In this document: one piece after another, positions 551-25,097 of the stretch
Layout: every line of letters starts with the position of its first letter
Position numbering within the stretch: the stretch's first letter is position 1
Source of the DNA: a virus
Direction: 5' to 3' (one strand)
IMG/VR virus record: IMGVR_UViG_3300050821_001042
Coordinates: 1-29,543 of that record
DNA: 29,543 nucleotides
The notes under the pieces: generated by a model
Databases searched by the model: none
The model's input: the letters and a program-made list of their open reading frames with translations, nothing else
Told to the model about the DNA's origin: nothing
Position numbers and translations under genes: made by a program

Positions 551-756
551 ATGGGTCCACTCCTGGGTACACAGACGTTATAGGCGTACTCGCTCTGCCA
601 GCTTAAGAATCTCGGTGTACGCGGCCACTCTCTAGCCTCAATCTCGGTCCTACGGTAGCTCCGTCGGGACGGGGCATGATAACGAGGTTCTTTCGCAGCC
701 ACTTTCTGTGACGGCGGGTAAGCCATCGGGAGAACCATTTGTGGATGCTCATTCAC
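547..756 (-). CDS. Small basic hypothetical protein, 69 aa
   Basis: The ATG at 756-754 overlaps the stop of the 196-aa gene in an ATGA junction, and its own stop overlaps the ATG of the next gene in the same way, so translation is probably coupled through the series. The protein begins MNEHPQMVLPMAYPP and is rich in Arg, Pro, Ser and Tyr, with an Arg-dense centre (SRRSYRRTE, residues 30-38). No catalytic motif or membrane segment is visible. The composition is compatible with a nucleic-acid-binding or disordered protein, which is inference only. The main evidence that it is real is its exact fit between two coupled neighbours. Confidence 0.55.
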   Translation of the reverse strand: MNEHPQMVLPMAYPPSQKVAAKEPRYHAPSRRSYRRTEIEAREWPRTPRFLSWQSEYAYNVCVPRSGPI

Positions 757-1343
757 GCTACCGCCTCAAGCTGCGAGACTTCCTGCCACTTCGTCACTAC
801 GAACTTCCCGTAGGGGCCTTTGGTTGCCGGTCGGAAGTCTCCAAGACCGATGCGCTTGCCAGCATCATCTACCACCATGCGGAATACCTTGGCTCCCACA
901 ATGGAAGTATCAAGGTCTACGATGAATTCAAGCGCCCAGTCATCGAACATCGGACGGTGAGCCAGAATCCGTCCTCCAGTGGAAGGGATTCGCACTGCGC
1001 GGGTATCTACTTTCCAAGGCTGATCGTGAAGCAGCGGGATCTCGGCGCCAGCGATATCAACGCAGGCATACATGTGGCTCGACTTGCTGGTGGTCAGCTG
1101 AGTCTTTCCTGCCTTGTGAAACCGGCCACCCTCCATGATGCATCGCATGAGGTTGGGCTGAGGGATCATCGGCTTTCCATCGAGTCCCTTGTAGAGCTTG
1201 GATTCAGCGATCTCCAAGGGAGTCCCGCGATCCTGAGCGGCACCGGAGCCTCGGACGCCAGCAGAACTAGCTTCTGCAGCTGCATCCGTGAACCGATTGC
1301 AGATCAGGGGAGTCACGCCTTCAATTCTGATTGAGAGTTTCAT
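753..1343 (-). CDS. Phage accessory protein of unknown function, 196 aa
   Basis: The start ATG (1343-1341) has GAGG 5 nt upstream. The protein opens with a beta-like strand, MKLSIRIEGVTPLICNRF. It has a conserved-looking core with KPMIPQPNLMRCIMEGG (residues 57-73), W87 and DTRAVRIPSTGGRILAHRP (90-108). Near the C-terminus is a glycine-rich loop, GLGDFRPATKGPYGKF (167-182). From memory, proteins with this opening (I..TPL..) and GxGDxRP...YGxF ending occur in many phage accessory regions without an assigned function. The strand-plus-glycine-loop layout loosely recalls RAMP/Cas7-type RNA-binding folds, but that is speculation. It heads the coupled trio 753-387 and lies directly downstream of the 5-bp phased array, which would form its upstream untranslated region. 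Confidence 0.8.
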   Translation of the reverse strand: MKLSIRIEGVTPLICNRFTDAAAEASSAGVRGSGAAQDRGTPLEIAESKLYKGLDGKPMIPQPNLMRCIMEGGRFHKAGKTQLTTSKSSHMYACVDIAGAEIPLLHDQPWKVDTRAVRIPSTGGRILAHRPMFDDWALEFIVDLDTSIVGAKVFRMVVDDAGKRIGLGDFRPATKGPYGKFVVTKWQEVSQLEAVA

Positions 1344-1360
1344 AGTTCCTCGTTAATAAA

Positions 1361-1595
1361 CCTTGCCATGCCAGACCCGGCCTAGACAGGCATCGCGTTG
1401 CGCCACCACGCCCGGCAGTACGTTGCCAAACCTCGCTGTGCCGTTCCGCGCAGTTCCATGCCTGAGATTGCATTACCCCACCTTGCCCTGCCTGGGACGG
1501 CCTTGCTCCGGACGGCCCGGGTAAGCCCTGCCGCACCATGCATAGCAGCGCTCGGCTACGCCAGACATGGCACTACCTTGCACTACCGCGCCTCG
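1361..1595. repeat. Degenerate 5-bp phased array, about 47 units
   Basis: Cut into pentamers from 1361, the plus strand reads CCTTG CCATG CCAGA CCCGG and so on, staying in register for 47 units without an indel. By hand count, the first base is C in 42 of 47 units, the second is C in 27, and the last is G in 34 or A in 11. The two middle bases vary freely. On the minus strand the unit is roughly CNNGG. The array fills the gap between the minus-strand genes 1573-1743 and 753-1343, overlapping the last few codons of the former. Long open frames across it on both strands are a by-product of its composition. Confidence 0.85.
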
Positions 1596-6665: not shown

Positions 6666-7007
6666 ATGCCAAAGGGCTATAGGAAGGATGGCACGCCAAT
6701 CAGGCCACCAAAGGCCGGCATAGGCCCTGCACGCGGTACTCAGCCTAAGAGGATTACGGATGTAAAGGCCATGATCTACGAGGCACTGAGGGGCTTAGGC
6801 GGGGACGAATGGCTCAAGAAGCAGGCTAAGGAGTATCCGGCAGCATTCTTCGGACTCGTAGGACGATTAGTACCCATACAGTCAGACGTAACCCTAGGTG
6901 GACAGCTTGGAGTCATCTCAGACAAACCCATTACTGCAGAGGAGTGGGCAGCCCAAGCCCAGGCTGATCTGGGCACCACAGAAAGGCCCCCAGGCCCTGC
7001 TAATTAG
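6666..7007 (+). CDS. Terminase small subunit-like protein
   Basis: This 113-aa protein precedes and overlaps the large terminase gene, the usual place for the small subunit that recognises the packaging site. It begins MPKGYRKDGTPIRPPKAG, a basic tail like those of many small-terminase-like phage proteins. A helical segment, DVKAMIYEALRGLGGDEWLKKQA (residues 33-55), follows, then an oligomerisation-like stretch and an acidic/Pro-rich end (TTERPPGPAN). I see no clear helix-turn-helix, so the assignment rests mainly on position and composition. A poor GAGATAT ribosome site lies upstream. Confidence 0.6.
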   Translation: MPKGYRKDGTPIRPPKAGIGPARGTQPKRITDVKAMIYEALRGLGGDEWLKKQAKEYPAAFFGLVGRLVPIQSDVTLGGQLGVISDKPITAEEWAAQAQADLGTTERPPGPAN

Positions 7008-8388
7008 CTGTCCCGTATCGGAGATCTTCTATGGGGGAGCGAGAGGTGGGGGGAAGACTGACGGGGTATTGGGGAAATACGCTCTCAAGGCCCAGAGGTA
7101 TGGGAAGGCCTTCAATGCGGTCTTCTTCCGCAAGGAGATGCCTCAGCAGGATGATCTGATCGAGAGAGCGAAGGAGATCTACCAACCGATAGGGGGCCAT
7201 TTCAGTGACCAGAAGAAGCTCTTCGACATGCCCCGAGGAGGACGCATTCGCTTCCGTCCATTGGAGAACATTGCGGATGCTGAGAAGTATCAGGGGCAAT
7301 CCATTACAGACGCTGCAGTCGAAGAGGTCGGAAACTACGTTTCGCCTGCTCCAATCGACCGACTTAATGCTTGCCTACGTTCAGCCCACGGAGTGCCTAC
7401 TCAACTACTGCTCACAGGGAATCCAGGAGGAGCGGGACAGGGCTGGATCAAGCAGCGATACATAGATCCTGCTCCATTAGGACTTAAGATCCTGATCCGA
7501 GAACTCCCCAACGGTCAGAAGCATCAATACGTATTCATCCCCTCGAAGGTCTATAACAATCAGATCCTCTTGAGGAATGACCCCGACTACATCAATAGAC
7601 TTTACTTGGTCGGCTCTCCCCAGCTGGTCAAGGCATGGCTGGAGGGCGACTGGTCTGCAGTCGAGGGGGCGTACTTCCCTGAGTTCAGCTTAGAGAAGCA
7701 TGTGATTGCACCCAGGGCCTTACCCTCTACCTGGTTGCGGTTCAGGAGCATGGACTGGGGTTCTGCCAAACCGTTCTGTGTGGGCTGGTATGCAGTGGTT
7801 GGGGATCACGACGAGCTTCCCAGGGGATCTTTGGTCAAGTACCGGGAATGGTATGGCCAAGACCCCAAGCAGCATATGAATACGGGATTGAAGCTCACCG
7901 CTGAAGAGGTGGCGAGAGGGATCAATGAGCGTGAGAAGCCTGGAGAAGTGAATTACGGGGTGATTGACCCGAGTGCTGCTGCGACTAATGGGGGACCTTC
8001 GATTGTAGAGCGTATGGCAGCCGCAGGGGCTTTATTCACTCAACCCGGTGATAACAAGCGGGTAGCGACATTAGGCGCTCTCGGAGGCTGGGATCAGCTC
8101 AGGGCGCGATTAAAGGGTGATGGAGAGAAGCCTGCGATATACTTCTTCTCCACCTGTACTCATACGATCAGGACCCTCCCTGTGCTTCAGCACGACTCAG
8201 CGAGAGCCGAGGATGTGGATACGGATGGGGAGGATCATGCAGCGGATGAGACGAGATATGCCTGTATGAGCAGGCCCTACATCAAGAGCGAATCCCTCGC
8301 TAAACCCACTCCCATCTGGCCCCTCGGACAGCCCTCTGGAGAACTCTTCTTCCCCAAGCCCAAGCCCTTCAAGATCGAGCGCATATGA
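6898..8388 (+). CDS. terL: Terminase large subunit (packaging ATPase/nuclease)
   Basis: This is the motor that pumps DNA into the procapsid and cuts it. Numbered from GTG 6898 (496 aa), the adenine-binding PQKGPQ is at 27-32 and Walker A, GGARGGGKTDG, at 46-56. The Walker B/catalytic region TDAAVEEVGN is at 137-146 and the coupling motif LLTGNPGG at 171-178. The RNase H-like nuclease acidic residues are D286 (SMDWGS), D357 (VIDPS) and D446/D450 (EDHAADETRY). The full set is present. It overlaps the small subunit gene by 110 nt; TTG at 6907, with AGGTGG 5 nt before it, is an equally likely start. Product length is normal for compact podophage terminases. Confidence 0.95.
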   Translation: MDSLESSQTNPLLQRSGQPKPRLIWAPQKGPQALLISCPVSEIFYGGARGGGKTDGVLGKYALKAQRYGKAFNAVFFRKEMPQQDDLIERAKEIYQPIGGHFSDQKKLFDMPRGGRIRFRPLENIADAEKYQGQSITDAAVEEVGNYVSPAPIDRLNACLRSAHGVPTQLLLTGNPGGAGQGWIKQRYIDPAPLGLKILIRELPNGQKHQYVFIPSKVYNNQILLRNDPDYINRLYLVGSPQLVKAWLEGDWSAVEGAYFPEFSLEKHVIAPRALPSTWLRFRSMDWGSAKPFCVGWYAVVGDHDELPRGSLVKYREWYGQDPKQHMNTGLKLTAEEVARGINEREKPGEVNYGVIDPSAAATNGGPSIVERMAAAGALFTQPGDNKRVATLGALGGWDQLRARLKGDGEKPAIYFFSTCTHTIRTLPVLQHDSARAEDVDTDGEDHAADETRYACMSRPYIKSESLAKPTPIWPLGQPSGELFFPKPKPFKIERI

Positions 8389-22422: not shown

Positions 22423-23133
22423 ATGGGTAAAATCTACGTTAAGGCGACTCCTTCCTCTGTATTTGCAGCGGTGCAGACCTATACGTGGTCTTCCATCGAT
22501 CCGCAGATCGGGGGTGTCTATGACATCGGAAACGTGTGGACGGATGCACCCGGCCCTTATGCCGGAATGCTCACAAATTTCACACTTCCCGATAAAACCC
22601 AGACCGGCACTCTGACCTCTGCCGTTCTTCCCAATCCCATTTATGCCCCACAACCGGGATACATCATCTCGGCGTGGGAGCCTTCTTTGGGGTGGGGAGA
22701 GTTCATCGAACTGGCGGTGCCTAAGTCTGCGGCTATCCCGGTGGGAACAATCGTTACGTGGGATGCGGCTTACAACGCCGTCGCTTATGGAACGACCAAA
22801 CTTCTGGGACAGCCGGTAGCGGTATCGGTGGCCTCGGCGACCATTTCCAGTGGTAACCCGGTCACTGATCCACTGGGTGGAGGATTGGCATCCAACTCGA
22901 CGAACGTCATGTATACGTGGTTCCAGCTGACAGGCAGAGCCTGGACGCTCAAGACCGCGGTGCAGGTCACGCCGAACGTGCCGATCTTCGTCTCAGGTAC
23001 TGCAGGACGATTCAAAGTCCTGACTTCCGTCGGTGCTCAGTTCCTCGGAGCGAGGGCCGCGACTGCTACGACTACCAGTACGCAGTCTCTCGGTATCGTG
23101 CTCTGGAACCGTTCAGTCTCGGAAGGCGCGTAA
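22423..23133 (+). CDS. Head accessory / decoration-like protein
   Basis: This 236-aa protein lies 10 nt after the capsid gene, with GGAG 8 nt before the ATG. It is strand-rich: QTYTWSSIDPQIGGVYDIGN (residues 18-37), GYIISAWEPSLGWGEFIELA, and AIPVGTIVTWDAAYNAVAYG, followed by LLGQPVAVSVAS. Proteins of this appearance often follow the major capsid gene in related podophages, where they are presumed head decoration or capsid-stabilising proteins. That role is from position and composition; I cannot name a proven homologue. Its TAA overlaps the ATG of the glycosyltransferase-type gene, so the two are probably translated together. Confidence 0.72.
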   Translation: MGKIYVKATPSSVFAAVQTYTWSSIDPQIGGVYDIGNVWTDAPGPYAGMLTNFTLPDKTQTGTLTSAVLPNPIYAPQPGYIISAWEPSLGWGEFIELAVPKSAAIPVGTIVTWDAAYNAVAYGTTKLLGQPVAVSVASATISSGNPVTDPLGGGLASNSTNVMYTWFQLTGRAWTLKTAVQVTPNVPIFVSGTAGRFKVLTSVGAQFLGARAATATTTSTQSLGIVLWNRSVSEGA

Positions 23134-25097
23134 TGCTGAACGTCGCTTGTGTTAAATGGGGGAAAATGTACTCCTCGGAGTACGTCAATATCCTATTTGA
23201 CTCAGTGCGACGGAACCTCGCCTACGGAGTGGTAGGGAGGTTTGTTTGCTTCACAGATGACCCTGAGGGGTTGGAGGCGGGGATTGAAACCCGCCTCCTC
23301 CCTGAAGGGCTGAAGGGTTGGTGGAATAAGCTCTATCTCTTCTCAGCGGAAGCTTTCTCTGATGGAGATCGGGTTCTTTACTTCGATCTAGATACGGTCA
23401 TTACTGGTCCGTTGGACGCAATAGCCGATTACCGCGGACCTTTCGCTATCCTAAGAGATGCTTATAGGCTTGATGGATTGCAGTCCTCTGTGCTGGCTTG
23501 GGAAGCAGGGAATTGGACTCGACTGCTCTGGGAGCGTTGGCCAGATTACAAACATCTTCCCTGGCCGGGTGGAGATCAGCAGTACATTGAGGTTCAGATT
23601 TTTGGTAGTTCTGGGCTATTTACTTATGAGAAGTGGCAGAACAGTTTCCCCGGTAGGTTCTGTTCGTACAAGGTACAGGCTAGGAATGAGATCCCTAAGG
23701 GGTGCTCGGTTGTATTCTTCCACGGGGACCCAAGACCTCATGAGGTGAAGGACGGCTGGGTTCCCCATGTATGGAAGGTAGGGGGGGGGTCGGGGGCAGA
23801 GTTTATCGTTCAGTCGAACGTGAGTAATGAGCGGCTGGAATGGAATGTCGCTCTTTCGTTGAAGTCCTGTAAAACCTGGCTCAAGAAAGAGCCCGGACAC
23901 TCAGGCGTTGCAGTGATTGTAGGCGGAGGACCCTCCTTAAAGGATCATCTCTTCCGTGTCCGCGGTCGGCAGATGGCGAAAGCCAAAGTCTTTGCCTGTG
24001 GCAACTCGGCGAACTACTTGCTTGAGAATCAGATTACCCCTGACTATCAGGTATTACTCGATGCCCGGGCAGAGAATGCCTCCTTTGTCGTGGGTGACCC
24101 CACGGTTAAGTTCATTGCTTCCCAGTGTGACCCGAGGACGTGGAAGAAAGGCGGAATTGGCTTTCACGCGATGCAGACTTCCTATATGCATCTCGTGGAG
24201 AATGAGGAGATGCTGGTCGGGGGAGGGTCCACGGTAGGTTTGAAGGCCATTGCGGTGGCTTATGCTTTGGGCTTCCGGAACTTTCATCTCTTTGGGTTAG
24301 ATTCCTCCTATTCCGAAGACTCTCATCATGCTTATCCTCAGTCCCTGAACGATAAGGAACGGCGGATGGAGGTGAAGTGTGGGGAGAAGACTTTCACCTG
24401 TGCACCTTGGATGGTGACACAGGCGGAGGAGTTCAAAGAGCTCGCCCGGGTCCTCGTTGAGATGGGCTGTACTTTCAGCATTCACGGGGAGGGGTTGATC
24501 CCGAGCATTGCATCAGCTTTAGAGGTTCCTTTGGTTGCTGCGGACACCCGTGCGCACGAGATCCTGAAGCATTTGAACGGCCAGAAGGATCCTGTAGGTG
24601 TAGAGGTAGGGGTATTCGCAGGAGCCCTCTCAGTCAGACTTCTCTCTCATCCTAAGTTGACCCTCCATATGGTGGACTCCTGGACGAGTGAGGGAGTCAC
24701 TCAAGAGCAAATCGACGCAGGAGACTTCCACGCCAAACTCTCCCAGGCTCAGCAGGATCACCTCTATAGCTCTACCAAGGAAACGATAGCTTTTGCTGGT
24801 GAACGGGCAAGAGTCATCCGTGCCGATAGTGTGAAGGCTGCGAGTGAGTTCGAGGACGAGTCAGTTGATTTCGTCTTCATCGATGCGAATCATCTCTATG
24901 AGGCGGTGAAAGAGGATATCGAGGCCTGGTGGCCGAAAGTGAGGCCGGGAGGCTTCCTCTCAGGTCACGATTATGAGAATCCCGAATACCCTCTCTGGGG
25001 GGTCAAACGCGCTGTAGATGAGCGATTCGGGAAGAAAGTCACGTTAGGTGAGAATTTTTGCTGGTTTGTCCACAAAGCAGGTAATTATGAACACTGA
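23133..25097 (+). CDS. Three-domain protein: glycosyltransferase, DUF115-like, SAM methyltransferase
   Basis: I choose ATG 23133 (TAATG junction); a 72-residue upstream extension is only a shadow of the previous gene. The product is 654 aa. Residues 1-205 look like a GT-A glycosyltransferase with the DxD motif VLYFDLDTVITG (81-92, D85 and D87) and VFFHGDPRPHEV. Residues 250-450 resemble DUF115 (MptE/6-hydroxymethylpterin pyrophosphokinase-like), with GVAVIVGGGPSLKDH (258-272) and HLFGLDSSYSEDSHHAYP. Residues 480-654 are a class I methyltransferase with VGVEVGVFAG (488-497), HMVDSW, and DFVFIDANHLYEAVKEDI (579-596), then PGGFLSGHDY. It sits inside the head operon, so transfer of sugar to virion proteins with methyl capping is a reasonable inference. 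Sugar and target are unknown. Confidence 0.85.
   Translation: MLNVACVKWGKMYSSEYVNILFDSVRRNLAYGVVGRFVCFTDDPEGLEAGIETRLLPEGLKGWWNKLYLFSAEAFSDGDRVLYFDLDTVITGPLDAIADYRGPFAILRDAYRLDGLQSSVLAWEAGNWTRLLWERWPDYKHLPWPGGDQQYIEVQIFGSSGLFTYEKWQNSFPGRFCSYKVQARNEIPKGCSVVFFHGDPRPHEVKDGWVPHVWKVGGGSGAEFIVQSNVSNERLEWNVALSLKSCKTWLKKEPGHSGVAVIVGGGPSLKDHLFRVRGRQMAKAKVFACGNSANYLLENQITPDYQVLLDARAENASFVVGDPTVKFIASQCDPRTWKKGGIGFHAMQTSYMHLVENEEMLVGGGSTVGLKAIAVAYALGFRNFHLFGLDSSYSEDSHHAYPQSLNDKERRMEVKCGEKTFTCAPWMVTQAEEFKELARVLVEMGCTFSIHGEGLIPSIASALEVPLVAADTRAHEILKHLNGQKDPVGVEVGVFAGALSVRLLSHPKLTLHMVDSWTSEGVTQEQIDAGDFHAKLSQAQQDHLYSSTKETIAFAGERARVIRADSVKAASEFEDESVDFVFIDANHLYEAVKEDIEAWWPKVRPGGFLSGHDYENPEYPLWGVKRAVDERFGKKVTLGENFCWFVHKAGNYEH

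Follow-up and report, generated by a model that had tools for sequence, protein, structure and literature searches.

The locus lies on the minus strand of a window of 29,543 nucleotides (the whole stretch of viral DNA analysed here), which also encodes terminase, portal, major head and tail proteins. It comprises a gene for a 196-aa protein and, upstream of its ATG, a long array of degenerate pentamers. The features discussed below, in window coordinates, are:

753 to 1343, minus strand: vipr, encoding a 196-aa protein of predicted RAMP fold (phrog_4652), the presumed vrRNA-binding subunit, from profile matches and an AlphaFold2 model
1344 to 1360, minus strand: 17-nt gap between array and vipr, TTTATTAACGAGGAACT, holding a likely ribosome-binding site, from its sequence
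1361 to 1595, minus strand: putative vrRNA guide array of 47 uninterrupted YNNGG units, from phase-5 information, an HMM and the identity of its repeat with the published vrRNA unit
1361 to 1370, minus strand: possible constant 3′ handle, the final two units CATGG CAAGG, from the array ends of relatives
1371 to 1425, minus strand: predicted 3′-most guide, units 35–45 (NN letters AA AC CG GT GG AA GA CT TA CG CT), by analogy with relatives
1451 to 1510, minus strand: units 18–29, weakly resembling a vipr segment that relatives conserve (G-K-F-H-K-x-G-K-K-Q-I-T), no more than a lead, from the family-level search

Elsewhere in the window, a 726-aa ORF (22917–25097) carries glycosyltransferase-like (78–287) and DNA-methyltransferase-like (548–709) stretches, an unusual pairing.

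The 235 bp of the array divide into 47 pentamers whose register never slips, running on the minus strand from CGAGG CGCGG TAGTG CAAGG (unit 1 at 1591–1595) to TCTGG CATGG CAAGG (unit 47 at 1361–1365). Phase-5 information amounts to 121.2 bits, compared with 9.1 ± 3.6 (maximum 31.0) in 2000 dinucleotide shuffles, which did not reproduce the 5-bp periodicity. The array is the strongest 5-bp signal of the window, and the top 200-bp segments all overlap it. An HMM detector of C-N-N-G-G units with slips permitted scored it at 115.9 bits with zero slips and found no second pentamer array in the window. Tandem Repeats Finder left it uncalled because its units are too degenerate. The 47 units and strict register described in an earlier note on this DNA are borne out by these scores, and the plus-strand column counts given there (C at position 1 in 42/47, C at position 2 in 27/47, G or A at position 5 in 45/47) were exact. 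It is barely conceivable that the region is coding sequence, as a 72-aa minus-strand ORF (1321–1539) or a 75-aa plus-strand ORF (1398–1625). Both frames are open, but a period of 5 is out of codon phase, and the 72-aa ORF lacks any PHROGs or Pfam match and leaves part of the array uncovered. A blastn search of the array region against phages gave zero matches, and Rfam, run on the window and 12 related loci, returned a single tRNA and no hammerhead ribozyme in that sample. Near the array we found no sigma-70-like promoter and recognised no structured 3′ tail.

The 196-aa gene is annotated as of unknown function (phrog_4652). A profile of 26 of its relatives, none of them an Ounavirinae sequence, matched PDB 36pp (36pp_D, ‘SUSP1 Vipr protein’) at E 1.6e-18 and the SUSP1 genome at E 1.4e-20; a profile restricted to the window clade still matched 36pp at E 3.1e-11. 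Identity between the window protein and its Ounavirinae homologues is about 27–28%. Its AlphaFold2 model has a mean pLDDT of 79, and the 50 best Foldseek matches in the PDB were all CRISPR RAMP backbone subunits of Csm3/Cas7 type (best E 3.8e-6). By profile and predicted fold, the gene product is a Vipr homologue of the RAMP family. It resembles the Csm3/Cas7 backbone of Class 1 CRISPR-Cas systems, a multimeric RNA-binding subunit, in this predicted fold. Unlike those systems, Vipr is smaller and the locus has no contiguous guide and no CRISPR-type identical repeats with unique spacers, Tandem Repeats Finder and the HMM indicating only degenerate pentamers at 1361–1595.

A preprint of 2026 describes VIPR (Viral Interference Programmable Repeat), which consists of the ~20-kDa RAMP protein Vipr and of vrRNAs of 9–16 YNNGG repeats that lie in the intergenic regions flanking vipr (PMC13142463). 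In a vrRNA the GGY is constant and the NN letters form the guide; target DNA is read as NN x NN x NN, one base being skipped, and this RNA-guided DNA recognition has been proposed to be older than CRISPR (PMC13142463). The window array has the same conserved GGY and hypervariable NN. Its minus-strand unit has Y in 96%, G at position 5 in 89% and GG in 55% of cases (complete GG in 26/47 units), against 94% Y, 93% final G and 70% GG in the other arrays of the clade. The earlier note had seen that the period is held while the middle bases are free, which is right and corresponds to the vrRNA signature of a GGY scaffold and an NN code, and it had correctly placed an RNA element upstream of the 196-aa gene. 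The roles it proposed fared worse, an attenuator among them being unsupported, and its remark that no function had been described has been overtaken by the VIPR preprint (PMC13142463). The array it singled out is real; the informative strand is the minus strand, where the units read YNNGG, and the array is not unique. A RecT-type annealing-protein footprint, entertained as the source of the 5-nt period, was dropped in favour of the published VIPR. The note had also pointed to minus-strand GG doublets recurring every 5 nt as a quadruplex pattern. We regard a G-quadruplex-forming RNA or DNA element as very improbable and unnecessary, since GG is complete in barely more than half of the units, the GGY/NN structure accounts for the spacing, and in relatives the NN letters correspond to sequences of real target genes, as described below.

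The pairing of array and gene is conserved. Relatives of the 196-aa gene were collected from 48 viral contigs and 28 bacterial-genome contigs, some of them duplicates of one another, and most of the ~45 distinct loci have pentamer arrays beside vipr, upstream, downstream or on both sides. Loss and random indels are not the rule: arrays went undetected in a few relatives (L138–L141), and those present are mostly in register, with breaks falling mostly at spacers between vrRNA-like blocks. Some arrays exceed 180 units, while other relatives (e.g. L121, L126 and L142–L144) carry vrRNA-sized blocks of ~11–20 units with short spacers between them. A Felixounavirus (Ounavirinae) homologue locus and the SUSP1 locus show T-rich YNNGG arrays where expected. 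Between the window and its close relative L001, vipr is 76% identical in nucleotides, yet the two arrays can hardly be aligned and no more than 7/28 NN units are identical, as would be expected of hypervariable guides. Arrays in relatives mostly end in CAAGG CAAGG, CGAGG CGAGG or CGTGG CAAGG, followed mostly by short A/T-rich sequence, and by analogy the last two window units (CATGG CAAGG) are possibly a constant 3′ handle. No conserved vap neighbour was recognised, the conserved adjacent genes of the clade being those of replication and recombination only.

Several related loci are of interest in their own right. L121:345–2233, on a contig of a deltaproteobacterial MAG, is a clean multi-guide VIPR array of at least about ten consecutive vrRNA-like blocks. 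Most blocks close with CAANG CGYGG CAAGG CAAGG, and between them lies a near-constant spacer of ~30 nt (TTTTTT-GAGGGG...ATATA). At L047:4668–6012, discrete arrays of 11–15 units are in most cases followed by a short inverted repeat, GCACTAA(A)GTGC, which may be the hairpin tail of another VIPR subtype. Three Chloroflexota MAG contigs (L142:10708–11543, L143:9576–10453 and L144:10711–11499) each hold six or seven vrRNA-like blocks. The blocks alternate with a conserved module of ~50 nt, ACTCCCTGACGGAGAG...CCAAAGGGCTTT, which contains strong inverted repeats and might be a tail or a processing element of the vrRNAs. Finally, most of the 56 viral contigs found by four exact CAAGG units (L050–L105) have at least one YNNGG array and may contain further VIPR diversity.

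To read the code, the NN letters were taken from 144 arrays of the clade, 3228 units in all, and searched against all fetched loci with skips of 0, 1, 2 or 3 bases, arrays and low-complexity stretches being masked (one such stretch, in L056, had dominated the first scan). At a score of at least 15 in the first database, skip 1 gave 66 matches versus 6.5 per shuffled control, and skips 0, 2 and 3 gave 6, 7 and 5 versus 4, 3.5 and 4. In a larger database, with each array counted once, 35, 27, 15, 12 and 5 arrays had best skip-1 scores of at least 15, 16, 17, 18 and 19, respectively; the means of four shuffles were 8.5, 4, 1, 0 and 0, and reversal of the unit order gave 9, 4, 2, 2 and 0. One of the 35 was the window array itself matched to L275, a match that was discarded because this contig had been fetched with that same pattern and was therefore biased, so that the fair skip-1 counts at 17, 18 and 19 are 14, 11 and 5. 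The 14 arrays at 17 or above compare with 1 in each of the four shuffles, 2 with reversed order and 1–2 at skips 0, 2 and 3. In 64/66 matches the skipped bases fall in the wobble register of a sense or antisense frame, the two not always being resolved because frames were taken as the longest open frame. The counts argue that the 1-nt skip rule of targeting holds in the window's clade.

These results also bear on the DNA-level roles proposed earlier, a packaging or recombination site and a half-helical-turn ruler for a protein, and on a passive degenerate microsatellite. A non-coding position and the recombination genes nearby in relatives would suit a DNA site. However, the arrays travel with vipr, flank it on both sides and recur along contigs, the order of their dinucleotides is informative under skip 1 only, and slippage of a microsatellite would not yield ordered matches to the genes of other phages. 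Taken together, readings of this kind have very little probability, and the guide-RNA reading is preferred.

The best targets of clade guides are genes for Sak4-like annealing ATPases (AAA_24), DUF669/SSB-like proteins, an exonuclease, an endonuclease-like protein, the terminase large subunit and Vipr itself. They are replication, recombination, packaging and vipr genes of related phages, with recombination genes over-represented because the database is mostly DNA around vipr. By these matches, the targets appear to lie in competing mobile elements. In all 11 of the cases that could be checked, the carrier's own copy of the target gene matches its guide worse, with 4–9 mismatches. A guide of L128 fits L127 at 22/22 letters and its own copy at 18/22, in a context that is 90% identical, and a guide of L002 fits the L181 terminase at 21/22 letters and its own terminase at 15/22. 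Part of this difference arises because best matches were selected; yet none of the best matches lay in the carrier's own locus. Of these cases, that of L002, whose Vipr is 77% identical to that of the window, stands nearest to our locus. The L002 guide (units 12–22) fits the terminases of the phages L181 and L179, and the major head proteins of these two phages share 85–88% identity with that of the window (L181, 85%). The array with the best target match, that of a relative, has GG in 14/24 units.

Three further observations concern individual target genes. The window terminase (6898–8388) is unlike that of L179 and L181 despite their similar major head proteins, and the L179/L181 type is the one matched by the L002 guide; that terminase exchange might serve as an escape route is only a thought. 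Units 20–27 of the array at L004:3650–3883 (AA AT AA AT ...) match the first codons of L002 vipr (MKIKIKI) at 16/16 letters, and would be a VIPR-versus-VIPR guide, the stretch being of low complexity. A second vipr-targeting guide, at L007:3371–3459, agrees at 19/20 letters with the antisense strand of a conserved vipr segment (IEGITPLICN) in L003, and over a shorter stretch with L028.

For the window array itself, no target was found in ~2.9 Mb of local sequence, and exact scans with five 8-unit stretches against 2.9 million viral contigs gave no credible one. Units 34–41, 26–33, 10–17, 36–43 and 38–45 had 4, 4, 3, 3 and 18 exact matches, which were treated as chance because none extends into adjoining units. 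Target-matching units in relatives stop 1–4 units before the array end, and the 3′-most guide of the window is predicted from this to span units 35–45; its target was not found in the viral-contig and local searches. Units 18–29 match the vipr of L007 at 19/24 letters, a post hoc result that 8/150 shuffles equalled (P about 0.05), so it is kept as a lead only. The failure to find a target would suit a decayed VIPR array, whose register survives while its GGY scaffold erodes and whose targeting is no longer programmed, and the lower share of intact GG relative to the other clade arrays would agree. We nevertheless consider decay unlikely: the register is perfect over 235 bp, vipr is intact, and the arrays of L001 and L002 are equally degenerate (50–54% GG), yet L002 has a good target.

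The position of the array raises another alternative, an autoregulatory leader: by binding to the array in the leader of its own mRNA, Vipr would control translation of that mRNA, whether or not it also acts on targets. The 17 nt between array and ATG place the array beside the likely ribosome-binding site, and similarly short gaps separate array and vipr in most close relatives. As an explanation of the array this is rather improbable, as many clade arrays sit downstream of vipr or at another place in the contig and match targets, and autoregulation does not require hypervariable NN letters.

A working VIPR guide region remains the reading that we favour, and the closest described system is that of Escherichia phage SUSP1 (type II of the preprint, PDB 36pp). 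Both are phage-encoded and share a homologous ~20-kDa Vipr RAMP protein, YNNGG arrays beside vipr and the NN x NN target rule, seen here at the level of the clade. They differ in that SUSP1 has a vap gene and discrete vrRNAs of about 13–16 units, each with a conserved flank or tail behind it, whereas the window has one block of 47 units, against the 9–16 of published vrRNAs; the 17 nt ahead of the vipr start codon are too few for a long 3′ tail of the SUSP1 kind. For some VIPR types the text of the preprint mentions staggered arrays, in which vrRNAs overlap (PMC13142463, fig. S18); as far as that mention goes, they would explain a single long uninterrupted array. The likeliest reading of the 47 units is several overlapping vrRNAs or a tail-less form.

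The array, the homology and fold of Vipr, the conserved pairing of the two and the clade-level skip rule with targets in related phages form the direct basis for assigning the locus to VIPR. We are highly confident that 1361–1595 serves a tailed phage as the guide-RNA region of its VIPR system, through which Vipr would bind and repress the genes of competitors. Transcription, assembly on RNA and repression are modelled on the preprint (PMC13142463). The array would be transcribed on the minus strand, as the vipr leader or upstream of vipr, and the regularly spaced GGY positions would give copies of the 20-kDa Vipr protein a scaffold to assemble on. Each free NN dinucleotide would pair with two bases of target DNA, one base being skipped between successive pairs, and the Vipr–RNA complex would then bind and repress genes of competing phages. 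Recognition of rival phages' DNA through the guide units is the most likely use that Vipr makes of them.

The window locus adds to VIPR, a known and recently described kind of system, in a clade far from the two bench-studied ones. That the skip rule could be recovered in this clade from sequence alone supports the published code independently. The guides of the clade are aimed at orthologues of the carrier's genes where its own copy differs, a pattern that bears on the origin of guides and on the avoidance of self-attack. It is possible, if doubtful, that in this clade a single uninterrupted array without a tail, situated in the vipr leader, supplies many overlapping guides, and that these guides originate from orthologues of the carrier's replication, recombination and packaging genes at sites of amino-acid-changing difference. 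Discrimination of self from non-self would then rest on non-wobble bases alone, and Vipr, with the array in its own leader, could also regulate its own synthesis.
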